Assembly (NCBI GenBank): GCA_944371325.1
Contig: CALVXO010000004.1
Location: 1 to 64,000 of the forward strand
Direction: 5' to 3'
DNA: 64,000 nt
From: an uncultured Bacilli bacterium
Lineage (GTDB): Bacteria > Bacillota_I > Bacilli_A > RF39 > UBA660
Shown here: positions 26,162 through 41,829 of the stretch, piece by piece
Layout: every line of letters begins with the position of its first letter
Numbering within the stretch: position 1 is the first letter of the stretch
Translations under genes and position numbers: made by a program
Notes under the pieces: generated by a model
Database searches by the model: none
Told to the model about the DNA's origin: nothing
The model's input: the letters and a program-made list of their open reading frames with translations, nothing else

Positions 26162-27619
26162 ATGGATAAAGAGTTAGATAAAATAATTAAGCATATTAAA
26201 GATATGAATGGTAATAGTAGTGACATTAATGTAAGATACTTTAATATTCATAAAGAAAAAGTAGCTTTCATGTTTTTAGAAAGTGTTGCTAGTGATGATA
26301 AAATAAGTAATTATTTAGGCAAAAGTTTAAGTATTAATGTAAGAAGTAAAAAAAATATATTTGAAAATTTATTTGATAATATTAATAATACAATTCCTAA
26401 TAGTAAAGTTAAGATAATAGATAACTATGACGATATTTTTTATCATTTAGCAAGCGGTTTTACTTGTGTTTTTGTCGATGGTTATAATAAAGCAATCACT
26501 TTAGAAACTAAAGCTTTATTAGATAGAAGTGTTACTGAAGCTACTAGTGAACCTGTTTTAAAAGGTCCTAAAGATTGTTTTATTGAAAATATACTAGCTA
26601 ATATGGGATTAATTAGGAAAAGAATTAAAGATCCCAATCTTTATTTTGAAGAAACAAAAGTTGGAAGAAGGACAAAAACAAAAGTTATAATTGGTTATAT
26701 TAAAGATATTGCTGATGAAGAAAAAGTAAATTTATTAAAGAAAAAACTAGAAAAAATTAATATTGATGGAATCATCGATTCAAATTATATAAAAGAATTA
26801 TTAACCGATAATCAAAAATCTTTTTTACCAAGAGTAATATCTACAGAAAGACCTGATTTAACCGCCATGGGATTATTAGACGGTAAAATAGCTATCATCG
26901 TAGAAAACACTCCTTATGTTTTATTACTTCCTACCGTATTTGCTGATTTTTTCAAATCATCTGAAGACTATTATACAAAACCATTTAATGCCTCTTTTAC
27001 AAGAATTTTAAGATATATTGCATTCTTTATTGCTATTTTAGTGCCAGCTTTTTATATTGCCGTAACAACATTTAATATGGAAATTGTTCCTAGTTCTTTA
27101 TTAATATCATTTTCCATTCAAAGGGAAAGTGTTCCCTTTCCCACCATAATAGAGGTTCTAATACTAGTAATTTCTTATGAGATATTAAGAGAAGCCGATA
27201 CAAGAAAACCACAAATCATGGGCGCATCCATCAGCATTGTCGGTGCTTTAATTTTAGGTGAAGCAGCTGTTTCTGCCGGCGTTATATCGCCAATTGTTGT
27301 TATTGTTATTTCTATTTCAGCTGTTTCAGGAATGGGTTTCAATGATCCAGACATAACAAATGCAATTAGAACATGGAGAATATTATTCATGTTGGCCGCT
27401 TGTATGTTTGGAATTGTTGGAATCGTCACTTTATTCATTATTTTTATAACTAAATTAAATAGTATTGAAGTATTGGGTACACCTTATCTTTCCCCTTTAT
27501 CTCCTTTTAGTTTAAAAGATTTTAAAAATTCTTTGACAAGATTCCCTCAACAAAAAATAAAAACAAGACCATCTTATTTTAATAAAAAAAACATTAATAG
27601 AATAGGAAGTGACAAATGA
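26162..27619 (+). CDS. gerKA: spore germination receptor subunit A (GerA family)
   Basis: A 485-residue GerA-family protein: soluble N-terminal domain (about residues 1-270, with ERPDLTAMGLLDGKIAIIVENTP just before the membrane part) and about five C-terminal transmembrane segments, with the conserved PFPTIIEVL and GFNDPDITN loops. Together with B and C subunits it forms a germinant receptor in the inner spore membrane. The operon order A-C-B, as in gerK, and ATGA overlaps between genes support this. It shows that the organism forms, or descends from a lineage that formed, endospores. The gerK symbol is by analogy; the germinant is unknown. Confidence 0.93.
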   Translation: MDKELDKIIKHIKDMNGNSSDINVRYFNIHKEKVAFMFLESVASDDKISNYLGKSLSINVRSKKNIFENLFDNINNTIPNSKVKIIDNYDDIFYHLASGFTCVFVDGYNKAITLETKALLDRSVTEATSEPVLKGPKDCFIENILANMGLIRKRIKDPNLYFEETKVGRRTKTKVIIGYIKDIADEEKVNLLKKKLEKINIDGIIDSNYIKELLTDNQKSFLPRVISTERPDLTAMGLLDGKIAIIVENTPYVLLLPTVFADFFKSSEDYYTKPFNASFTRILRYIAFFIAILVPAFYIAVTTFNMEIVPSSLLISFSIQRESVPFPTIIEVLILVISYEILREADTRKPQIMGASISIVGALILGEAAVSAGVISPIVVIVISISAVSGMGFNDPDITNAIRTWRILFMLAACMFGIVGIVTLFIIFITKLNSIEVLGTPYLSPLSPFSLKDFKNSLTRFPQQKIKTRPSYFNKKNINRIGSDK

Positions 27620-28776
27620 AAAAATTATTAATCATTCCATTAATATTCCTATTAACTGGTTGTTGGAATTATCGCGAACTTAATCAATTAGCTATAACAA
27701 CTGGGATTGCAGTAGATAAAGAAAATGATAATTATAAAATAACTATTATGATAGCTAATTCTAAAAAAAGCAGTAGTTCAGATGGTAGTATAACTCCATC
27801 AGCAGCTGTTTACGATGGAACAGGTCAAACAATTTATGAAGCCTTTAAAGATACATCTTTAAGTGTATCTAAACAAATTTATCTAAGCCATATTGATGTA
27901 TTAGTACTATCTGAAGAAATTGCGAAAAATAATTTAACTGATGTAATTGATTTCCTATTTCGTTATCCCCAAACAAGAAATAATTTTTATTTAGTTTTAG
28001 CAAAAGATAAAAAAGCTAGCGACATCTTAAAAGTAACTACGCCAATAGAGACATTTCCCTCTCAAAATCTAGCTAAAAATCTTGAAATAACTGATAAATT
28101 ACAAGGATTTACTTATACAGTCGATTTTACTGATTTCACAAAATCACTTGTATCAGAAGGGATAAATCCTATTCTTCCATCAGTAACAATCATCGGAAAT
28201 AGTGAAGAAGGAAATAAAGAAGAAAACGTACAACAAAATGAACCATCTACTTATTTAAAATTAGACATATTAGGATTATTTAAAAAAGATAAATTTGTTG
28301 CATGGGCTAATCCTAATCAAAGCAAAGGAATCAATATAATCAATAATAAAATATACATATTAGGAGTTATTATTAATTACCAAAATGAAAAAATAGTAAC
28401 AGAAATAACCGAAATGAAAACTGATTTTAAAGTTGAAAATAACAAAGTGAAAATAACTATTGATACAACAGGAGCAATTCAAGAAGTAAATTCTAATGTT
28501 GATCTATATAATCTTAAAACTATTGAAGAAATTCAAAATTCAGATGTTGAAAAAATTAAAGAATATGTTAATGATGCTATTAATTTAGCCAAAGATAATA
28601 AAACGGATATTTTTGGTTTTGGAAACTATGTTTATAAGAATAATCCTAAAAAATGGAATGAAATAAAAGATAAATGGGACGATGAAATATTCCCTAGTTT
28701 AGAAGTAGAAATAGAAGTCAATCTAAAACTTCAGGCCAAAGGTTCAATAAATAATATCGTCGAGGTGAGAGAATGA
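27616..28776 (+). CDS. gerKC: spore germination lipoprotein, Ger(x)C family
   Basis: A 386-residue lipoprotein with signal sequence and lipobox LTGC (Cys at residue 15), followed immediately by WNYRELNQLAITTGIAVDK, the usual start of Ger(x)C proteins. Three domains are typical of the family and the length agrees. It overlaps the A subunit by 4 bp (ATGA) and the B subunit in the same way. It is the C subunit of the germinant receptor, exposed on the outer face of the inner spore membrane. Confidence 0.92.
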   Translation: MKKLLIIPLIFLLTGCWNYRELNQLAITTGIAVDKENDNYKITIMIANSKKSSSSDGSITPSAAVYDGTGQTIYEAFKDTSLSVSKQIYLSHIDVLVLSEEIAKNNLTDVIDFLFRYPQTRNNFYLVLAKDKKASDILKVTTPIETFPSQNLAKNLEITDKLQGFTYTVDFTDFTKSLVSEGINPILPSVTIIGNSEEGNKEENVQQNEPSTYLKLDILGLFKKDKFVAWANPNQSKGINIINNKIYILGVIINYQNEKIVTEITEMKTDFKVENNKVKITIDTTGAIQEVNSNVDLYNLKTIEEIQNSDVEKIKEYVNDAINLAKDNKTDIFGFGNYVYKNNPKKWNEIKDKWDDEIFPSLEVEIEVNLKLQAKGSINNIVEVRE

Positions 28777-29846
28777 AAGTAACTAATTCAGAATATGCTT
28801 GTTTATCATCTTTTTTAATAAGATCATTATTTTTTGGACCAGCTATTTATAGTATCTTACATTTTGCTTTACAAGATGGCTGGATAAGTATCATCGTTTC
28901 ATTTATTTTAAGCTTTATTCCTTTAATTATTTATTATAAGCTACTAAATTGTAATCCTAATGATAATATTGTTAGCTTAAATAACAAATTAGGATTAATA
29001 GGAAAAATAATTAATACAATTCTAACAGCTTTTGTTATTTTTCACGCCAGTCTAATTCTATGGAATTTAACTAACTTCATATATTCACAATTTCTATTCC
29101 AAACACCATTAATTGTTATTGCTATTATTATTTCCTTTGGCATATTTTATATCAGTATTAAAAACCTAACAACTATTGCTAGAACGGGAACTGTTTTCTT
29201 TATTATTAGCACTATACTATATTTTATAGCAGCTTTATCTTTAATTAGTAAATGCGATTTAAATGGTCTTAAACCCATTTTCAACTCAGGTATTATGCCA
29301 ATTCTAAAGGGAAGTTTTTCTTCTTTAGGACTTAATATATTCCCTTTATTTATAATTTTAATAATACCGAAAAATAACATCAAAAATAATAACAAAATTA
29401 TATCATCTTTCTTTAAAGTTTATATTTTCAGATATTTGTGCATGCTATCAGTATTAGTAATTTGTGTAGCTATTTTGGGAATAGAATTAACTAACCTTTA
29501 TCAATATCCGGAATATCACATTTTAAAAACTATTAATATTGCTAACTTTTTTCAAAGAGTCGAATCAGTTTTATCAGTTCAGTGGATATTTGATGCTGTC
29601 ATGTCAATAACATTATGCCTTTATTATGTTAAAGAAAGTATAACCAAAACATTTAATTTAAAAAACAAATTTAATTTAATAAATATTATTTGCATTATTA
29701 GTATTTTAATTATCGCAAATTATATCTTTACTAGTAATACGGTAGCAGAAACATTTTATAAAAATATTTATCCTTTTCTAACTTCAATCTTTTTCTTAAT
29801 TATTCCTTTGATAATATTAATAATAGTTAAAGTTAAGAAAACTTAA
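28773..29846 (+). CDS. gerKB: spore germination permease-like subunit (GerB family)
   Basis: A 357-residue membrane protein with about ten hydrophobic segments, related to amino acid permeases; GerB-family landmarks include the SLNNKLG-type loop and FQRVESVLSVQWIFD near residue 258. It is the B subunit, considered the germinant-sensing or channel part of the receptor. It overlaps gerKC by 4 bp and ends next to the convergent DUF368 gene; its terminator lies inside that gene. Confidence 0.92.
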   Translation: MKVTNSEYACLSSFLIRSLFFGPAIYSILHFALQDGWISIIVSFILSFIPLIIYYKLLNCNPNDNIVSLNNKLGLIGKIINTILTAFVIFHASLILWNLTNFIYSQFLFQTPLIVIAIIISFGIFYISIKNLTTIARTGTVFFIISTILYFIAALSLISKCDLNGLKPIFNSGIMPILKGSFSSLGLNIFPLFIILIIPKNNIKNNNKIISSFFKVYIFRYLCMLSVLVICVAILGIELTNLYQYPEYHILKTINIANFFQRVESVLSVQWIFDAVMSITLCLYYVKESITKTFNLKNKFNLINIICIISILIIANYIFTSNTVAETFYKNIYPFLTSIFFLIIPLIILIIVKVKKT

Positions 29847-34104: not shown

Positions 34105-34237
34105 ATACTCACCTATAATTATTATATATGATTTTTTTATAATTATCAATATATAATAATTATAAAATTAGGTGTTTAATTCACACCCTTTTGTCATTGT
34201 TGAATATGCTATATTAGAAAATGAAAGGGTGGATTTT

Positions 34238-34444
34238 ATGTGTAATAATGAAAATGAATCTTGCAAATGCATAGCAGAAATATTAACAGTAATATGTATT
34301 TTACAACAAAACGCAAATTGTTCTGATTCATGTTTAGATACATGTGATCGTGGATTTTTAGGCTGTGGCACTACTACTTATACTTGCAATACAAGACCTA
34401 TAATGTTATATACATGCTGTGGTAATGGAACACCATGGGATTGA
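34238..34444 (+). CDS. cotZ: spore coat protein CotY/CotZ-like, 5' part (interrupted gene)
   Basis: A 68-residue cysteine-rich fragment: CKC near residue 9, then CSDSC, CDRGFLGC and TYTCNTRPIMLYTCC. The 67th codon, TGG (34436-34438), is the last one belonging to the coat gene; GAT and the TGA stop come from the inserted element. The rest of the gene is at 41584-41829. The spacing of Cys clusters matches the N-terminal half of Bacillus CotZ/CotY, which builds the spore crust or outer coat. The start has an AAGGGTGGA site; the open frame upstream to 34172 lacks one. As it stands, it would make only a truncated coat protein. Confidence 0.82.
   Translation: MCNNENESCKCIAEILTVICILQQNANCSDSCLDTCDRGFLGCGTTTYTCNTRPIMLYTCCGNGTPWD
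34436..34438 (+). other. left attachment core (attL) of the cotZ element
   Basis: TGG shared with 41581-41583. Sequence to the left (AACACCA) belongs to the coat gene and sequence to the right (GATTGACG) to the element. Large serine recombinases exchange strands at a two-base core, so GG within this triplet is the likely crossover. Inferred from reading frames, not proven. Confidence 0.65.
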
Positions 34445-34491
34445 CGTTAAAGTGATAAATTATAATTAAAAGATAACATAAATATTGACAC

Positions 34492-34518
34492 TAAACGGCA
34501 TATATAAGTCGTTTTTTT
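34492..34518 (+). terminator. terminator at the left end of the element
   Basis: Stem AAACGGC/GTCGTTT with a loop of eight bases and a T run. It would stop transcripts of the broken coat gene from entering the element. Confidence 0.65.
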
Positions 34519-34535
34519 ATTATTTAATAATCAAA

Positions 34536-34550
34536 TACGCCACATCGCCA
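34536..34550. repeat. 15-bp inverted repeat, left arm
   Basis: TACGCCACATCGCCA here is the exact reverse complement of 39647-39661. The GC content is high for this genome. The two arms bracket the KAP, XRE, small membrane protein and RepA-like genes and exclude the recombinase. Confidence 0.7.
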
Positions 34551-34785
34551 ACTATAAATAATGGCCTGCCTTTATAAATTTAAGAAAATTTTTCTTTTTT
34601 TTAAAAGCACTTATAAAAAATCATTTAAATGTGATAAACAATAATATATTTTTTTATTATAAATAAATAAGTAAGTAGAAATTTTAACTCTAATAACAAA
34701 CATTAGGGGTATTTTACAATCAATAAAAACAAATAATAATTGATATTAAATATTGCTAATAAACGTTGTTTAAAGTCTTAAAAAA

Positions 34786-34815
34786 TTACAAATTATTGGA
34801 AATATATGGTAAAAT
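34786..34815 (+). promoter_or_regulatory. putative promoter of the KAP NTPase gene
   Basis: TTACAA, 18-base spacer, TAAAAT, 45 bases upstream of the start codon. Confidence 0.4.
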
Positions 34816-34860
34816 AAGGTTGTATTAATTAATTTTTTTCAAAGGGATAGTGATTAAACA

Positions 34861-37764
34861 ATGATTAAAAAACACAATAAAGATAAAAGCAGTGAAAATA
34901 ATAATATATTTTTAGAAACACCTATTGATAAAATAGAAGATGATAAATTTGGTTGTGTATCCTATTCCAAACAAATCGTTTCTGCTTTTGAAAAAGGTGC
35001 TAAATTTATAGCAATAGATGGTGAATATGGTGTAGGAAAATCAAGCATATTAAATTTAACAAAAAAACTAATTGAAGACAAAAATAAATATAAAATATTT
35101 AATCATTTTAGGCAAAAAAAAGATTATTTTGTAAATATAAATTTTTTAAATATTAATAATGTTTCCACTGAAGAATCGGACAAGATAAACAATTATCATA
35201 GATATTTTGTAAATCAAACAGCTAATGATTTATATAGAAATCCATATGATATTGAAAAACTTTTTTATCATAATTTTGTTTCATATTCAACGATTTCATT
35301 AAAAAATGATAATTTATTTAAAAAAATTATTGATAAAGCATTATTAATATTATTGGCTTTTATATCACTTTATTTAATCTATTCAAGCTTCTTTAAAAAT
35401 TTCGAATTACTAAAGGGCTTATATAACTTTTCTACAGAAATAATGCCATATATCTTATTTACATTATTTATCTTATTAATTTTATATGGATATGGTTTTT
35501 ATAAGCCTGATAAGTCTGAAATAAGTCCTATGCTCGAAGTAGATAAATGTAGGAATAATTTGTGCAAAATATTATTTAATAAAATTCCTAAAAACAGCAA
35601 TGTTTATTTTATATTAGATGACTTAGATAGATTAGAAAATAATTTACAATTACAAATCATTTCATTGTTATATAATGAATATTTCCCTTTAGATAAAATC
35701 ATTAAAGATATAAATTTAAAATTTATTTTTATGATTAATATAAGTGAATTGAATAAATTGAATAAATTAAATGAATCAGATAAATCGAATGAGCCAAATG
35801 AATTAAAAAAATTAAATGCACCTAAAAAATCAAATAATAATAACAATATTAATGTAAATAAACTATTTGACTATATCATAAATATATCTAATAACCAAAT
35901 CACAATTTTAAGAAATTATTTAATTAGAAACATAGAAAATAATACTATATTGGAAAAATTATTTGATATTAAAGAAAAAGATTATATAATTGGTTTAATT
36001 TTAAATAACTACAATAGTATAAGAAAAATAAAACATTTTCTCAATAGAGTTATTACAAAATATATTTATTTAACCAATAAAAATTATAAATATTTAAATA
36101 ATGCTCAATTAATATGCATATGTATATTGATTAATTTAACAGATACTGAAACATTAAATAATAATATAAATAATATAATACATAATTATAATTATTCACT
36201 AGAAAAAAATGATGAAGACGAAAATATATTAAATATTATAAAAGAGTTATATGAAAGAAAACTAATTGATAATAATTATTATGTTTATTTATATAATTTT
36301 ATAGACATAGATGATTTATTAAATAATGATGAACAATTTATATATAATATATTAAATAATTTATCAAAATTAAAAGAAGATGATTTGATTAAAATGTATG
36401 AGATATTAGATGGAAATTATGTTTCATTTTCAAAAATATATAATGAGATATATAAATATGTTTCCAATAATTCAAAAATACTATTACTAGGAAATAAAAC
36501 ATTTAATAGTTTTATGGAATCAAATTATCAAATTGATTATGAAATATTTAAAAATTTATATAGAAATCCGTTTATTTATTTTTGCTATGAATTTTTAAAT
36601 AATAAATATTATTATGCCATGGATGATGAAATTGAATTGTTAGAAAAATATTTTCAAAATTTTGAACAACAATCGTCTATAGTTAGCAATAAAGAAAAAG
36701 ATGATTTTGTTAATGAATTAAAAATTTTTATAAAAAATATGAAATACAATATTAAATTTTTTAATTTTCAAAAATATTTTAATTGGTTGGAACTTGATAA
36801 AAATTTATTTACTTTAATTTATAATCAAAAAGAAAAAAAAGTATCAGTTATATATGAAATGATTTTAAATGAAAAACTATCTTGGGATATTATTGAAGAT
36901 TTTGTTAATGAATCAATAATAAATGATATATTAAGTATCCAAGATGATGAATTTAGACTACAAATAGAAGAATGCTATTTGAAATGGAGCAAATCATTTG
37001 ATTTTATGATTCAAATAATCTATAAAGAAAAAAGAATTATTAACGATATTGAAGAAATTTTTACAAAATTAAATCAATTTGAAGACAATAAAATAGATTT
37101 AGAAACACTAAAAACAATTATAAATAAGTATGGCTATTTAAAAATATTTGACAAATATTTAATTAATAACTTAAAAGAAAACGAAAACGATACAATTTGT
37201 TATATTAATGAAAATAAATTTGATATTTCTGAAAATATAATAAATGCAATAAATGAATCAAATTACGCACACAAATTTAAAGAACACTATAATAATTTAT
37301 TTTTAAAATATAAATATTATAAACTATATATATATTCAAAAGCAAAAAAAAATAAAACTTTCGATATTAATTTAAAATTAAAATCAAACGAAAAATATAT
37401 ACACTCTTTATTGGAAATTTTTGAATCATTAAATACTGATTGGAAAAATTATAATTTTACTGACAATTTTAAATCTTTAATAATTAAAGAAATAAATATA
37501 GATACAATAGAATTAACTGATAAAGATTTTTGGAAAATATTAAAGTTAATTCCACAAATAAATAATCACAATGAATCATTTAAATTTTTTAATAGGATTA
37601 GAAATTTAAATTTATTAGATAAATTTTGCTCATATTGTTCACGAAATTGTAATGATAAAGATTTCATAAATAATTTGAATTTATTTGTTTCAGAATTTGG
37701 CACAACAGGAAATAAAATTGTAATTACAAAATTAAAAAATAAAATCGAGGAAAAGCAAAAATAG
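34861..37764 (+). CDS. KAP-family P-loop NTPase
   Basis: A 967-residue protein. Walker A is GEYGVGKSS at residues ~54-62. Two transmembrane segments (about 159-178 and 194-213) are inserted between Walker A and Walker B (ILDDLDRLEN near residue 251), the hallmark of KAP NTPases. A low-complexity Asn/Lys/Leu/Ser-rich stretch lies at ~297-328. The long C-terminal region (about 430-967) is helical and unassigned. KAP NTPases include PifA-type phage-exclusion proteins, so it may be a defence gene carried by the element; that is inference. It is very AT- and Asn-rich, has only a weak AGGGAT site, and ends in TAG with a terminator. Confidence 0.82.
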   Translation: MIKKHNKDKSSENNNIFLETPIDKIEDDKFGCVSYSKQIVSAFEKGAKFIAIDGEYGVGKSSILNLTKKLIEDKNKYKIFNHFRQKKDYFVNINFLNINNVSTEESDKINNYHRYFVNQTANDLYRNPYDIEKLFYHNFVSYSTISLKNDNLFKKIIDKALLILLAFISLYLIYSSFFKNFELLKGLYNFSTEIMPYILFTLFILLILYGYGFYKPDKSEISPMLEVDKCRNNLCKILFNKIPKNSNVYFILDDLDRLENNLQLQIISLLYNEYFPLDKIIKDINLKFIFMINISELNKLNKLNESDKSNEPNELKKLNAPKKSNNNNNINVNKLFDYIINISNNQITILRNYLIRNIENNTILEKLFDIKEKDYIIGLILNNYNSIRKIKHFLNRVITKYIYLTNKNYKYLNNAQLICICILINLTDTETLNNNINNIIHNYNYSLEKNDEDENILNIIKELYERKLIDNNYYVYLYNFIDIDDLLNNDEQFIYNILNNLSKLKEDDLIKMYEILDGNYVSFSKIYNEIYKYVSNNSKILLLGNKTFNSFMESNYQIDYEIFKNLYRNPFIYFCYEFLNNKYYYAMDDEIELLEKYFQNFEQQSSIVSNKEKDDFVNELKIFIKNMKYNIKFFNFQKYFNWLELDKNLFTLIYNQKEKKVSVIYEMILNEKLSWDIIEDFVNESIINDILSIQDDEFRLQIEECYLKWSKSFDFMIQIIYKEKRIINDIEEIFTKLNQFEDNKIDLETLKTIINKYGYLKIFDKYLINNLKENENDTICYINENKFDISENIINAINESNYAHKFKEHYNNLFLKYKYYKLYIYSKAKKNKTFDINLKLKSNEKYIHSLLEIFESLNTDWKNYNFTDNFKSLIIKEINIDTIELTDKDFWKILKLIPQINNHNESFKFFNRIRNLNLLDKFCSYCSRNCNDKDFINNLNLFVSEFGTTGNKIVITKLKNKIEEKQK

Positions 37765-37788
37765 CATTAAAAATTATGCTATTTTTTT
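37760..37788 (+). terminator. intrinsic terminator after the KAP gene
   Basis: Stem AATAGCAT/ATGCTATT with a loop of about eight bases and a T run; the TAG stop lies in the stem. Confidence 0.8.
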
Positions 37789-37838
37789 ACTTATATAGTA
37801 TTGTGGAAAACATATATAAATATACTAGTACATTAAGA

Positions 37839-38090
37839 TTAAAATTTATTTACTTTAAAAAAGTCAGCTATATCAATTCCTAAAGCTTCTGAAATTCTTC
37901 CAAGAACTGCAATGGTTAAATGTTTATTACGTTTTTCATTTTCAATATCACATATATATTCTCTTGACATTTCTGTCATGTCAGCTAAATCTTGTTGTGT
38001 CAAATTTTTTTCTAATCTAAATTTTTTTATGTTTTTTCTAATTATAGAATAATAATATTCATTATCATGAATATATGCTTTTTCCTTCAT
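37839..38090 (-). CDS. XRE-family transcriptional regulator
   Basis: An 83-residue Cro/CI-type helix-turn-helix protein: LTQQDLADMTEMSREYICDIENEKRN is the DNA-binding core (residues ~30-55). It has the size of a minimal phage or element repressor. It faces away from the small membrane protein and RepA-like genes, with a 100-bp divergent region between them holding a GGCTAACAGCC palindrome and an extended -10 promoter, the expected place for its operator. It may keep the element genes quiet. Confidence 0.85.
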   Translation of the reverse strand: MKEKAYIHDNEYYYSIIRKNIKKFRLEKNLTQQDLADMTEMSREYICDIENEKRNKHLTIAVLGRISEALGIDIADFFKVNKF

Positions 38091-38190
38091 CTATTTCACC
38101 AACCTATAATTAGTATGTTATTTTTTTTCAAAAATATATATAGGCTAACAGCCACATTTGTGATATAATAAATTATGAAAGGAGTTAAAT

Positions 38191-38412
38191 ATGGGAAAGC
38201 CAAAAAAAAATAATGAATTTAAATGGTATCATTGGTTTGGAATAGGCCTACTTTTTCTTATGATTTATATTGGAATATCTGAAGGAAACGAAGAAACAGT
38301 TGAAGACCAAATTGACAGATTAAATCGTGAAAGTTGCAGTTCACAAACAAACACTTTTTACAAATGCAGTTGGAGTTTTTGGGAAGATAGATGCGTATGT
38401 AAAGAAAGATAA
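38191..38412 (+). CDS. small membrane protein, element-encoded
   Basis: A 73-residue protein with one transmembrane segment (about residues 14-30) and a C-terminal region with four cysteines (ESCSS, YKCSW, DRCVCK) that could form disulfides outside the cell. No family is recognised. A strong GAAAGGAG site and a TGATATAAT extended -10 support expression. It ends in a terminator. Confidence 0.65.
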   Translation: MGKPKKNNEFKWYHWFGIGLLFLMIYIGISEGNEETVEDQIDRLNRESCSSQTNTFYKCSWSFWEDRCVCKER

Positions 38413-38420
38413 ACCAATAG

Positions 38421-38446
38421 AAAAGTACATTTTGTACTTTTTTTTG
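38421..38446 (+). terminator. intrinsic terminator
   Basis: Stem AAAGTACA/TGTACTTT with a T run directly after the small membrane protein gene. Confidence 0.8.
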
Positions 38447-38588
38447 TACATTTTTCTATAAAAATTATTAATTTTAAAACTTTTTTTTCAAAAAGTTGAT
38501 TATAGACAAAATAGCATGATATAGTGTTGTCGCTAGCAAAAAAAAGATTAATTTGTCGACAATTAAAAATTTAAGAAAGGAGAAGAAT

Positions 38589-39623
38589 ATGAAAAATTTT
38601 AAATTGGAAAGTTTTGATTCAATTACAGAAGAAGAAATTGAATGGTTATGGAAGCCATATATTCCACTCGGAAAATTAACAATGTTCGCTGGAGATCCTA
38701 GCGTCGGAAAAAGCTTTATAAGTACATTTTTGGCAAGTACAATATCTACTGGAAGCAAATTTCCGTTTAGTGATGAAATAGTTGAAAGTGGAAATGTTAT
38801 AATTTTAAATGCTGAAGATGGTAATGCTGATTGTATTAAAAAGAGATTACGATTAAGTAATGCTAATTTTGAAAATATCTATACCTTATTAAGTGTAGAT
38901 AATAAGAAATTTTTCACACTAAAAAATTTATCTGATTTAGAGGATATGATTCAAGAAGTTAAGCCAAAACTAATAATTATTGACCCTATTACCTCTTATT
39001 ATGGAGAAGGAGTTGATACTTTTAAAGATAGTTCTGTTCGAGCTATACTTGCACCAGTTGTAGAATTAGTTTCTAAATATAAAGTTGCCTTACTAGGAAT
39101 AATACATTTTAATAAAGGAAATGATAAAGCAATATATAAAATGAATGGTAGTATTGCAAATATGGGCTTACCTCGTTCTGTTATTTATGCAGTGCATTCT
39201 AATAACAATGATGAAAGATTACTAATTCATATAAAATCTAGTAATGCAGAATTAGGAGAAAGTATTGCTTATCGTATTACAGATAATGGGATTGAATGGC
39301 TTGGAATACGTGGAAAAATTAATGCGGATGAAGTAATTTCTAATGAAGAATCTAATCAATATGAAATTGCCTGTGATTTTATATTAGACTACCTAAAAGA
39401 TGGTAAACAGCTCGGAAGCAATCTATTGAAAAATGCTTTAGAAAATGGTATAGCAAAAAGAACGTTGGAACGAGCTAGAGCAAATTTGAAAAAAAACGAT
39501 ATTATTAATAATGTGATTATTGATTTTAAAACATATTGGTATATTGTTGATAAGAAAAAACTAGATAATAAAGTTGAAAATGAAACTAATTTAGATGATA
39601 TTAATCCATTTGATGACATTTAA
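38589..39623 (+). CDS. RepA-like hexameric ATPase (AAA_25)
   Basis: A 344-residue P-loop ATPase of the RepA/RecA-like helicase group often found on plasmids, prophages and integrative elements. Walker A is GDPSVGKSF near residue 36 and Walker B is LIIIDPI near residue 131; the N-terminal EIEWLWKPYIPLGKLTMFAG is a family landmark. A C-terminal winged-helix-like part (from about residue 260) may bind DNA. It suggests that the excised circle could replicate or that the element descends from a replicating plasmid or phage. The ATG at 38589 has AAAGGAG; an upstream ATG at 38553 does not. Confidence 0.82.
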   Translation: MKNFKLESFDSITEEEIEWLWKPYIPLGKLTMFAGDPSVGKSFISTFLASTISTGSKFPFSDEIVESGNVIILNAEDGNADCIKKRLRLSNANFENIYTLLSVDNKKFFTLKNLSDLEDMIQEVKPKLIIIDPITSYYGEGVDTFKDSSVRAILAPVVELVSKYKVALLGIIHFNKGNDKAIYKMNGSIANMGLPRSVIYAVHSNNNDERLLIHIKSSNAELGESIAYRITDNGIEWLGIRGKINADEVISNEESNQYEIACDFILDYLKDGKQLGSNLLKNALENGIAKRTLERARANLKKNDIINNVIIDFKTYWYIVDKKKLDNKVENETNLDDINPFDDI

Positions 39624-39644
39624 AATTACTTAGTAGCCAAATAA

Positions 39645-39700
39645 AATGGCGATGTGGCGTAGTAAAAAGACTATGAAAATAATCATAGTCTCTCGCCATT
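39645..39700 (+). terminator. nested hairpin after the RepA-like gene
   Basis: An inner stem AGACTATGA/TCATAGTCT (39668-39676 with 39683-39691) sits inside an outer pair AATGGCGA/TCGCCATT (39645-39652 with 39693-39700). It may act as a terminator or as a structured site; no long T run follows. The right arm of the 15-bp inverted repeat overlaps its left side. Confidence 0.5.
39647..39661. repeat. 15-bp inverted repeat, right arm
   Basis: Exact reverse complement of 34536-34550, 5.1 kb away, marking the right edge of the cargo block of the cotZ element. Confidence 0.7.
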
Positions 39701-39822
39701 AATATTTATATATTGAATCCAGTTAAATTATACCATAATATAAATTTTAAGTCTATATAATCATTATTGTTATGCAAATTATAAATACACACTAATATAA
39801 TATATAAAGGGGTTGTGATATT

Positions 39823-39939
39823 ATGAATGTTGAAGTTTTTTATAACGAAAATGGTAAAACATTTCAAGAGATTATGGAATACTTTTTAATAGAAATGTGT
39901 GATACACAAAGTGCCAGTTTTATTGAGAAATATGCCTAA
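39823..39939 (+). CDS. 38-residue ORF upstream of the recombinase
   Basis: A short frame beginning MNVEVFYNENGKTFQEIMEY and ending SFIEKYA, with an AAAGGGG site and a nearby TATAAT. Similar small acidic proteins are often encoded just before serine recombinases of integrative elements. Its role is unknown; a recombination directionality factor is one possibility. It is too short for default gene callers. The recombinase promoter lies at its 3' end. Confidence 0.6.
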   Translation: MNVEVFYNENGKTFQEIMEYFLIEMCDTQSASFIEKYA

Positions 39940-39951
39940 ATATGATATAAT
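39923..39951 (+). promoter_or_regulatory. sigma-A type promoter of the serine recombinase
   Basis: TTGAGA, 17-base spacer, TATAAT, 36 bases upstream of the start. It resembles a vegetative promoter; I do not see a clear mother-cell (sigma-E or sigma-K) promoter here. Confidence 0.6.
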
Positions 39952-39987
39952 ATTACTGTCAATATGTGTTATCTAGAAGGAGGCAAA

Positions 39988-41550
39988 ATGGTAGATAATA
40001 ACACATATAAAGTTGGTTTATATATTAGATTATCTAGGGAAGATGAAGATAATAATGGAGAAAGTGAAAGTATTACTAATCAAAGAAATTATTTGTTAGA
40101 ATATGTAAAAAATAATCACTTTATTCTAATTGATGAATATGTTGATGACGGGTTTACTGGAACAAATTTTGAGAGACCAGCATTTAAAAGAATGATTAAA
40201 GATATAGAACTTGGTAAAATAAATTGCGTTATTACTAAAGATATGTCAAGACTAGGAAGAGATTATATTGGTATAGGAACCTATATGGAAAAATACTTTC
40301 CAGAGCATAATATAAGATATATTGCTGTCAATGATAATATTGATTTAAAGGATGGTAAAATAGACAATATGGCTCCTATTAGAGCAGTATTTAATGACTA
40401 TTATGCTAAAGATATTTCTGACAAAGTTAAAAGCACTATTACTAATAAAAAAAGAAATGGACAATTTTTAGGTGGAGTCCCACCCTATGGTTATAAGTTT
40501 GAAAGCGATGACAATCATTATAAATTAGTAATAGATGAAGAAACTAGCATAGTTGTTAAGAGAATGTTTAATATGTTTGTTGGTGGCAAAAGTTTAAAAT
40601 ATATTGCTGATACACTAACAAGTGAGAATATTCCTATTCCTAGTATCCATAAAAATTTAAATAGAGGCCTTAAGTCTACTGCTTATGGAGTATGGCAAAC
40701 AAGAACTATTGATGAAATACTTAAAAATCCTACATACATAGGAAACTTAACGCAAGGTAGAAGAAAGAAAATTAATTATAAAATTAAAAAAGTTGTTAGA
40801 GTCCCTAAAGAACAATGGATTGTATGCGAAAACACACATGAGCCTATTATAGATAAAGAAACATTTGAGCAAGTACAAAATATCTATGAAAAGAATAAAA
40901 GCTTAAATCGTAGCAAAAATCATTTATTATTAAGTGGTTTTATATATTGCAAAGAATGTGGGCATAGAATTGGAATTAGTCAAAGCTCTAATAAAAAATT
41001 TTATTGTAGTTGTAATTATTACAAAAAATACTCTAAATTAGGCCTATGTACACCCCATTCTATACCTTATAATGTGTTAGAAGATATAATACTAAAAGAA
41101 ATAAGAAAAGAATGCAAAAAGAGTGTTAAAGGCGATAAATTTAAAGACATAATTAAAAGTAATGACAAAAAAGAAAAAGCCAAAGTTAATTTAATACAAT
41201 TAATTAAACAAAAAAAGCAAGATATAGAAAATACAAAAAATGCAATTGATGATTTATATATAGAAAAACTTAAAAAAAATATAAGTAGTGAAAGATATAC
41301 TAGTGTATATAATAAATTAAATAGCGAATTTAACGTTTTAAACGAAGATTTAAAAGCACTAGAAACAGATTATTCATATTTGCTAGGAAACGTTAAAAAC
41401 AGCCCTAGTATCAATTATACAAAGGCTGTTAACGAATATTTAGCATTAAAAAATCCTACTAGAGAATTACTTGCGAACTTAATAGACAAAATTGTTATAG
41501 ATGAAGATAAAAATATACAAATATACTACAAAATAAAAAAAGCATGGTAA
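39988..41550 (+). CDS. large serine recombinase (site-specific integrase)
   Basis: A 520-residue large serine recombinase. The resolvase catalytic domain occupies residues 8-150, with the nucleophile Ser in YIRLSRED (about residue 16) and the arginine motif KDMSRLGRD near residue 85. The recombinase domain follows (GVPPYGYKF near residue 164). A zinc ribbon is at ~310-345 (CKECGHRIG, then YCSCNYYKK). A coiled-coil lies at ~395-455. AGAAGGAGG supports the start; an ATG eight codons upstream has no such site. It ends 30 bp before the junction with the 3' part of cotZ, the usual place for such enzymes beside their attachment site, and should catalyse integration and excision of the element. Confidence 0.93.
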   Translation: MVDNNTYKVGLYIRLSREDEDNNGESESITNQRNYLLEYVKNNHFILIDEYVDDGFTGTNFERPAFKRMIKDIELGKINCVITKDMSRLGRDYIGIGTYMEKYFPEHNIRYIAVNDNIDLKDGKIDNMAPIRAVFNDYYAKDISDKVKSTITNKKRNGQFLGGVPPYGYKFESDDNHYKLVIDEETSIVVKRMFNMFVGGKSLKYIADTLTSENIPIPSIHKNLNRGLKSTAYGVWQTRTIDEILKNPTYIGNLTQGRRKKINYKIKKVVRVPKEQWIVCENTHEPIIDKETFEQVQNIYEKNKSLNRSKNHLLLSGFIYCKECGHRIGISQSSNKKFYCSCNYYKKYSKLGLCTPHSIPYNVLEDIILKEIRKECKKSVKGDKFKDIIKSNDKKEKAKVNLIQLIKQKKQDIENTKNAIDDLYIEKLKKNISSERYTSVYNKLNSEFNVLNEDLKALETDYSYLLGNVKNSPSINYTKAVNEYLALKNPTRELLANLIDKIVIDEDKNIQIYYKIKKAW

Positions 41551-41580
41551 AGGTATTATTTGTAACTATATGTACAAACG

Positions 41581-41583
41581 TGG
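41581..41583 (+). other. right attachment core (attR) of the cotZ element
   Basis: TGG matching 34436-34438. To the left is element sequence (TACAAACG), to the right the coat gene resumes (AGTATGCC). It is in frame with the downstream coat codons. Confidence 0.65.
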
Positions 41584-41829
41584 AGTATGCCAACAACTAA
41601 AGATACAACTGACTGTACTGATACTCCAACACCATCAAATTGTTCAAACGTATTTAGAATTGAAAAAATTGACGGATGTTGCGCAACTTTTAGAGTTCTA
41701 GCACCAAATACTGATCCTCTAACACAAGCAGCTATTCCATATGTATCAACTAATTCTTTTTTTACTATGAATTTGAATTGCGTTTGTAGTTTAAGATGCT
41801 TACAAGATACATACGTTGAATGTTTATAA
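41584..41829 (+). pseudogene. cotZ: spore coat protein CotY/CotZ-like, 3' part (interrupted gene)
   Basis: Eighty-one codons beginning SMPTTKDTTDC and continuing with VFRIEKIDGCCATFRVLAP and LNCVCSLRCL. These match the C-terminal half of CotZ/CotY, where the corresponding Bacillus CotZ stretches read VFFRVERVHGSCATLSLL and LDCFCAINCL. There is no usable ribosome binding site for the internal ATG at 41587, so this half cannot be made alone. Joining codon 67 of the 5' part to this one gives a 148-residue protein, the length I recall for B. subtilis CotZ. A terminator follows. Confidence 0.82.

Follow-up and report, generated by a model that had tools for sequence, protein, structure and literature searches.

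A cotZ spore-coat gene of an uncultured Bacilli lineage is split by a serine-recombinase element that is probably excised in the mother cell

The spore-coat gene cotZ is present as two pieces in the stretch of DNA analysed here (the window, 64,000 nucleotides of contig C4 of the bin G000, which has 77 contigs and 1.57 Mb). An element has inserted at a TG dinucleotide within the gene and is probably removed by its own recombinase in the sporulating mother cell, which would restore cotZ. Excision in the mother cell during sporulation is the part of this reading that we infer from sequence features. In Bacillus subtilis, CotZ has been described as a crust morphogenetic protein (PMC7439481).

Both pieces scored above the 24-bit cut-off of the Pfam family PF10612 (Spore-coat_CotZ), on complementary parts of the profile: the 5' part gave 28.3 bits over positions 3-64 and the 3' part 29.9 bits over positions 81-159. 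With recombinase domains found between them, the original prediction of a cotZ gene interrupted by a serine-recombinase element was borne out, and the N-half ends in the stop at 34444 and the C-half lies as it had described. The crossover codon TGG of the 5' part occupies positions 34436-34438. The dinucleotide TG is common to both junctions (34436-34437 and 41581-41582), and joining there gives an in-frame cotZ of 148 codons. The predicted split stands, with the bounds of the element corrected to 34438-41582 (7,145 bp counting one TG); as foreseen, the recombinase stop codon (41548-41550) is 30 bp before the shared TG of the right junction. Neither the 3' half nor its internal ATG at 41587 is preceded by a ribosome site at the proper spacing. 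The features of the locus are collected in Table 1.

Table 1. Features of the split cotZ locus, in window positions
Feature	Position	Strand	Detail or evidence
Sigma-K-like promoter of cotZ	34182..34211	+	CACA ... AATATGCTA
5' part of cotZ	34238..34444	+	66 cotZ codons, crossover TGG, 1 foreign codon (GAT), stop TGA
Crossover dinucleotide TG, attL	34436..34437	+	attP inverted repeat, empty-site alignments
Intervening element E1	34438..41582	.	7,145 bp; absent from syntenic intact relatives, same site filled in G006
Conserved left-arm motif TTAAAGTGAT	34447..34456	+	equal spacing in 5/5 split loci
Terminator-like hairpin just inside attL	34493..34514	+	z -2.57
967-aa P-loop ATPase-like cargo	34861..37764	+	weakly PifA-like
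HTH_3 (Cro/C1-type) regulator	37839..38090	-	PF01381, 45.4 bits
73-aa ORF	38191..38412	+	no family over cut-off
AAA_25 (RepA-like) ATPase	38589..39623	+	PF13481, 101.6 bits; phrog_3123, 4.3e-18
38-aa ORF, N-E-N-G-K motif	39823..39939	+	recombinase companion; no Pfam family over cut-off
Sigma-A-like promoter of recombinase	39923..39951	+	TTGAGA-17-TATAAT, 11/12 consensus matches
Large serine recombinase, 520 aa	39988..41550	+	PF00239, PF07508, PF13408 over cut-off; phrog_95 integrase, 1.3e-103
Crossover dinucleotide TG, attR	41581..41582	+	empty-site alignments, attP symmetry
3' part of cotZ	41581..41829	+	starts at second TGG; WSMPTT... to stop

The empty site was found in relatives. When compared by blast, syntenic intact cotZ genes align through window position 34438 and restart at 41581, the 3 bp TGG being shared by both alignments. 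Of the 10 such loci compared, six (L028, L033, L034, L035, L037 and L038) show the join with no base gained or lost. Precise removal of the element would restore the cotZ frame and a short identical core, TG or TGG, is present at both junctions, as in skin-like sporulation elements. Uninterrupted genes, which had been expected in relatives, have 144-148 codons across the genus and 148 in G015; the two halves of G000 together encode the same 148 residues as the G015 gene, the DNA differing by 13 synonymous and 0 nonsynonymous changes. We take the gene order at the unbroken locus in the genus to be trpS, a patatin-like gene, cotZ, a small gene and a polC-like gene.

The same base of cotZ is cut in five species, by four element types belonging to two recombinase lineages. 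PF10612 found a match in all but one of the 18 genomes that represent the genus, and in three of these 17 (G000, G006 and G013) the gene is split; the other two split loci lie outside the genus, in G194 (another genus) and in G399. G006 holds the same element type as G000 (7,064 bp), 93-100% identical, with a recombinase 99.7% identical. Outside the element, the two genomes share 80-82% identity in the upstream flanks, 94% in the N-half, 87% in the C-half and 90% in polC. Given these differences, the element has moved recently between species. The G013 element (E2) is only 2,378 bp long and has four ORFs (a 33-aa ORF, the recombinase and a RelB/YafQ pair), its recombinase being 49% identical to that of E1. 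The RelB/YafQ-type toxin-antitoxin pair (L026:2223-2806) is the sole further cargo seen in this 2.4-kb element, and may guard it against loss. A third element type, of 6,191 bp, occupies the gene in G194, and a 6,844-bp element was newly found in cotZ of G399 by a search with the attL pattern. Recombinase frames are full length in all five split loci (510-520 aa), and both halves of cotZ are without frameshift or stop in each of the five. The N-half proteins of G006 and G013 are the same as that of G000, though synonymous sites differ, and comparisons among these three split genes and the unbroken genes of their relatives gave dN values of 0-0.05 at dS values of 0.08-0.91. In view of the recent movement of the element, conservation of the halves may predate the insertion, so that selection before and after it is inseparable in these figures.

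The exact attL pattern was present in 2 of the 386 family genomes sampled (G000 and G194). Exact matches only were counted, because allowing 1-2 mismatches added seven family genomes, and at that setting the backwards control matched more genomes than the pattern did; one of the seven, in G107, proved on translation to be a gene other than cotZ. A search of 84,980 species genomes, which may have skipped the genome of the window itself, gave the pattern at eight loci, four of them in cotZ (G006, G013, G194 and G399) and four outside it (L105, L109, L110 and L111). In IMG/VR, no match was obtained with the attL pattern or the E1 attP, and no relative of the recombinase was found. A protein search with the N-half returned 49 proteins of N-half length, all of them read by eye. 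In 18 (P0001, 3, 4, 7, 11, 12, 13, 15, 17, 18, 19, 21, 23, 24, 27, 28, 35 and 37), CotZ sequence stops at the crossover codon and a foreign tail follows. These 18 clusters represent 50 contigs by listing and were judged from the protein only; proteins running past the crossover (WSMP...), ending earlier or diverging elsewhere were left out of them, as was the ambiguous P0020. The PF10612 survey of the family took in the best matches listed, and a recheck of 36 genomes gave mostly weak matches or none; split copies next to an intact paralogue could therefore have been missed.

In each of the five split loci, which have four distinct arm pairs, the attP arms form an inverted repeat with its best centre at TG, where 17-22 of 30 positions are symmetrical, against 12-14 at the next-best centre within 8 bases (permutation p <=0.00075 in four loci). 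The motif TTAAAGTGAT lies nine bases past TG in all five left arms. In the empty attB of five intact genes, symmetry was not best at TG. A reconstituted attB was not found in G006, G013, G194 or G399 at <=2 mismatches; in the controls of this search intact G015 was found as expected, and the backwards sequence gave single matches in G013 and G056.

Resolvase, Recombinase and zinc-ribbon domains (PF00239, PF07508 and PF13408) are present in the E1 recombinase, and DUF4368 reached 20.4 bits, under its cut-off of 25. No phage structural genes were detected among the five E1 proteins scanned against PHROGs, the set without the 38-aa ORF, and the named matches were limited to integrase, invertase and transposase, transcription regulators, HTH proteins and helicase, primase and polymerase types. 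The 967-aa cargo protein matched AAA families of Pfam under the cut-off, and PADLOC related its residues 14-76 to the phage-exclusion protein PifA (E 4.6e-8); given this weak likeness, the cargo gene may serve in defence. A tree of 19 recombinases (five from cotZ and 14 others), made up of those fetched loci that yielded a frame, placed E2-E4 in one clade (100/100) and E1 separately. Targeting of cotZ takes two changes on this tree, and may also have had a single origin. Several relatives of the recombinase adjoin non-sporulation genes.

Of 21 related cotZ genes, 19 have the sigma-K-like pattern in their upstream region, where 0.006 occurrences would be expected in a shuffled sequence; the pattern was drawn up from the general sigma-K consensus after this sequence had been seen. 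Hence, the predicted need for cotZ is confined to a late stage of the mother cell. In the stretch with the sigma-A-like promoter of the E1 recombinase, sites of all kinds numbered 5, against 3.7 in shuffled sequences. The 450 bp before the recombinase contained no sigma-E/K-like site in E1, E3 or E4. The only such match before the E2 recombinase is the cotZ promoter itself: the small ORF of E2 starts 50 bp downstream of the cotZ part and is directly followed by the recombinase, with no terminator-like site and a weak sigma-A-like site (9/12) between cotZ and the small ORF. E2, E3 and E4 each have a short ORF, similar to the 38-aa ORF of E1, just before their recombinase gene, and one like it also accompanies a recombinase relative outside cotZ (L074); this shared short ORF is the leading candidate for a directionality factor. 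A sigK-family gene is unbroken in all five split genomes, the host G000 included, and scores above the curated cut-off in four.

The G194 assembly carries an indirect sign of an element-free allele. The contig with the element (C13) ends 127 bp into the C-half of cotZ, and the first base of another contig (C3) is the crossover T itself, the 127 bp being common to C3 and C13. Of the 35 contig ends of G194 compared, three further pairs also overlap by 127 bp, and this length was therefore taken as the assembler's k-mer; the C-half would then have a second left neighbour that parts from the first at the crossover base. The base before TG is G in the integrated form and A in the empty site, and a graph fork exactly at the crossover T would be expected from a mixture of integrated and empty chromosomes, whereas the other element types described here also have G before TG and a mixture of them would fork further left. 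The fork may stem from excision or from element-free strains. Contrary to what a perfectly symmetrical mixture would give, the left junction of G194 is unbroken in its contig.

The original prediction had considered that a second, intact cotZ might serve the coat. Such a gene is present in the bin of G000 (a 156-aa ORF matching PF10612, 62% identical to the C-half), on contig C27, which looks foreign. A gene on this contig is 67-69% identical to nine orthologues of the genus, which are 72-97% identical to each other, and the GC content of C27 is 27% against 24%. This outlying identity and GC point to probable contamination of the bin, and the gene was rejected as a native second copy; against contamination, another gene of C27 has a 75% identical relative in G015. 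In G006, G013 and G194 (bins 71-89% complete), the cotZ halves are the only PF10612 matches. As a separate observation, a 4.8-kb stretch of C27 (L027, 2000-6842) with a serine-recombinase gene is 100% identical to G001:C24, and also carries what is presumably a relaxase-like gene.

In the preferred reading, excision by the element's recombinase in the mother cell, the enzyme would be made in vegetative cells from the sigma-A-like promoter and be kept in integration mode. A sporulation-controlled directionality factor would switch it to excision, as in SPbeta and the C. difficile skin, and a cut between the two TG copies would rebuild the 148-codon cotZ coding sequence. The mother-cell genome would afterwards be discarded and the forespore would keep the element. 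The sigma-A-like promoter and the recent movement of the element argue against a simple picture of a programmed recombinase. A more far-reaching idea, possible but tentative, is that cotZ is a docking site shared by different elements, which converged on the identical base because the mother cell leaves no descendants. In the small element of G013, transcription from the sigma-K-like cotZ promoter would run on into the recombinase, and the interrupted gene would thereby call for its own repair just when the coat protein is required.

The same recent movement and sigma-A-like promoter would also suit an ordinary mobile element that uses a conserved motif of cotZ as its attachment site and leaves occasionally at any stage, the coat gene being off in carriers. 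The recombinase relatives beside non-sporulation genes, and a G194 fork that could stem from element-free strains, point the same way. We consider this unlikely, since a gene with a sigma-K-like promoter has been used repeatedly by two recombinase lineages, which fits a gain from mother-cell excision, and since PF10612 matched nothing but the split gene in G006, G013 and G194, and the halves have stayed open in all five cases. Those open halves, the low dN where dS reaches 0.91 and the full-length recombinase frames speak against permanent inactivation of cotZ, with the halves as decaying remnants; it is very improbable, although a spaced ribosome site is lacking before the 3' half and one of the 18 genomes of the genus gave no PF10612 match. 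That the halves act as separate proteins, for which the internal ATG of the C-half could be invoked, or that the break is an assembly artefact, is hardly credible: relatives have unbroken genes, most in the same gene order, the same break is seen in assemblies of five species, and no spaced ribosome site precedes that ATG.

A skin-like element whose recombinase is expressed in vegetative cells and is combined with a mother-cell factor is a known arrangement, applied to cotZ by analogy (PMC4191935, PMC5025042). SPbeta, in spsM of Bacillus subtilis, has a recombinase, SprA, with sigma-A-like expression, and SprB sets the timing of excision (PMC4191935); like E1 it splits a spore-surface gene and has a recombinase with a sigma-A-like pattern but, unlike E1, it is a full prophage in a polysaccharide gene, with experimentally shown excision. 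In Clostridioides difficile, the large serine recombinase of the skin in sigK is constitutive and a mother-cell directionality factor restricts excision (PMC5025042). E1 shares with it the large serine recombinase and, as predicted from the promoter, vegetative-type expression, whereas the skin targets a sigma factor and the sigK-type genes of the five cotZ-split genomes are unbroken. The gin element of Bacillus cereus ATCC10987, which interrupts gerE, measures 28.6 kb and has three recombinases and an overlap of 9 bases (PMC5595907). It likewise is of non-phage type, carries serine recombinases and sits in a small sporulation gene; the cotZ elements differ from it in their size (2.4-7.1 kb), single recombinase and TG core. 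Integrated and excised forms of yin coexist in yabG of Clostridium botulinum (PMC10747680); it also splits a sigma-K-controlled sporulation gene, but is prophage-like and belongs to another gene and another lineage. The literature covered, which took in few subscription papers, describes elements in sigK, spsM, gerE, spoVFB, spoVR and yabG, and none was found there in cotY or cotZ.

The cotZ elements would add to the sporulation gene-intervening elements: their target gene and their lineage are new, and one member is only 2.4 kb long. If the preferred reading is true, the few sporulation genes known to be rebuilt by DNA excision would be joined by one for coat morphogenesis, in a Bacilli lineage that is uncultured. 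The 2,378-bp element of G013 would offer a near-minimal system for studying what limits serine-recombinase excision to the mother cell and, with one site used by two recombinase lineages, the question of why mobile elements choose mother-cell genes becomes testable.

Two minor observations concern other genes. In the recombinase relatives L067, L071, L076 and L080, the sequence downstream is the apparent 3' part of one shared gene (...GGMPEMTFEWALRE...), which we take to be transporter-like, and this suggests another recurrent split target. Elsewhere in the window, two ORFs at 27616-29846 presumably resemble a spore-germination operon of the GerC/GerB type.
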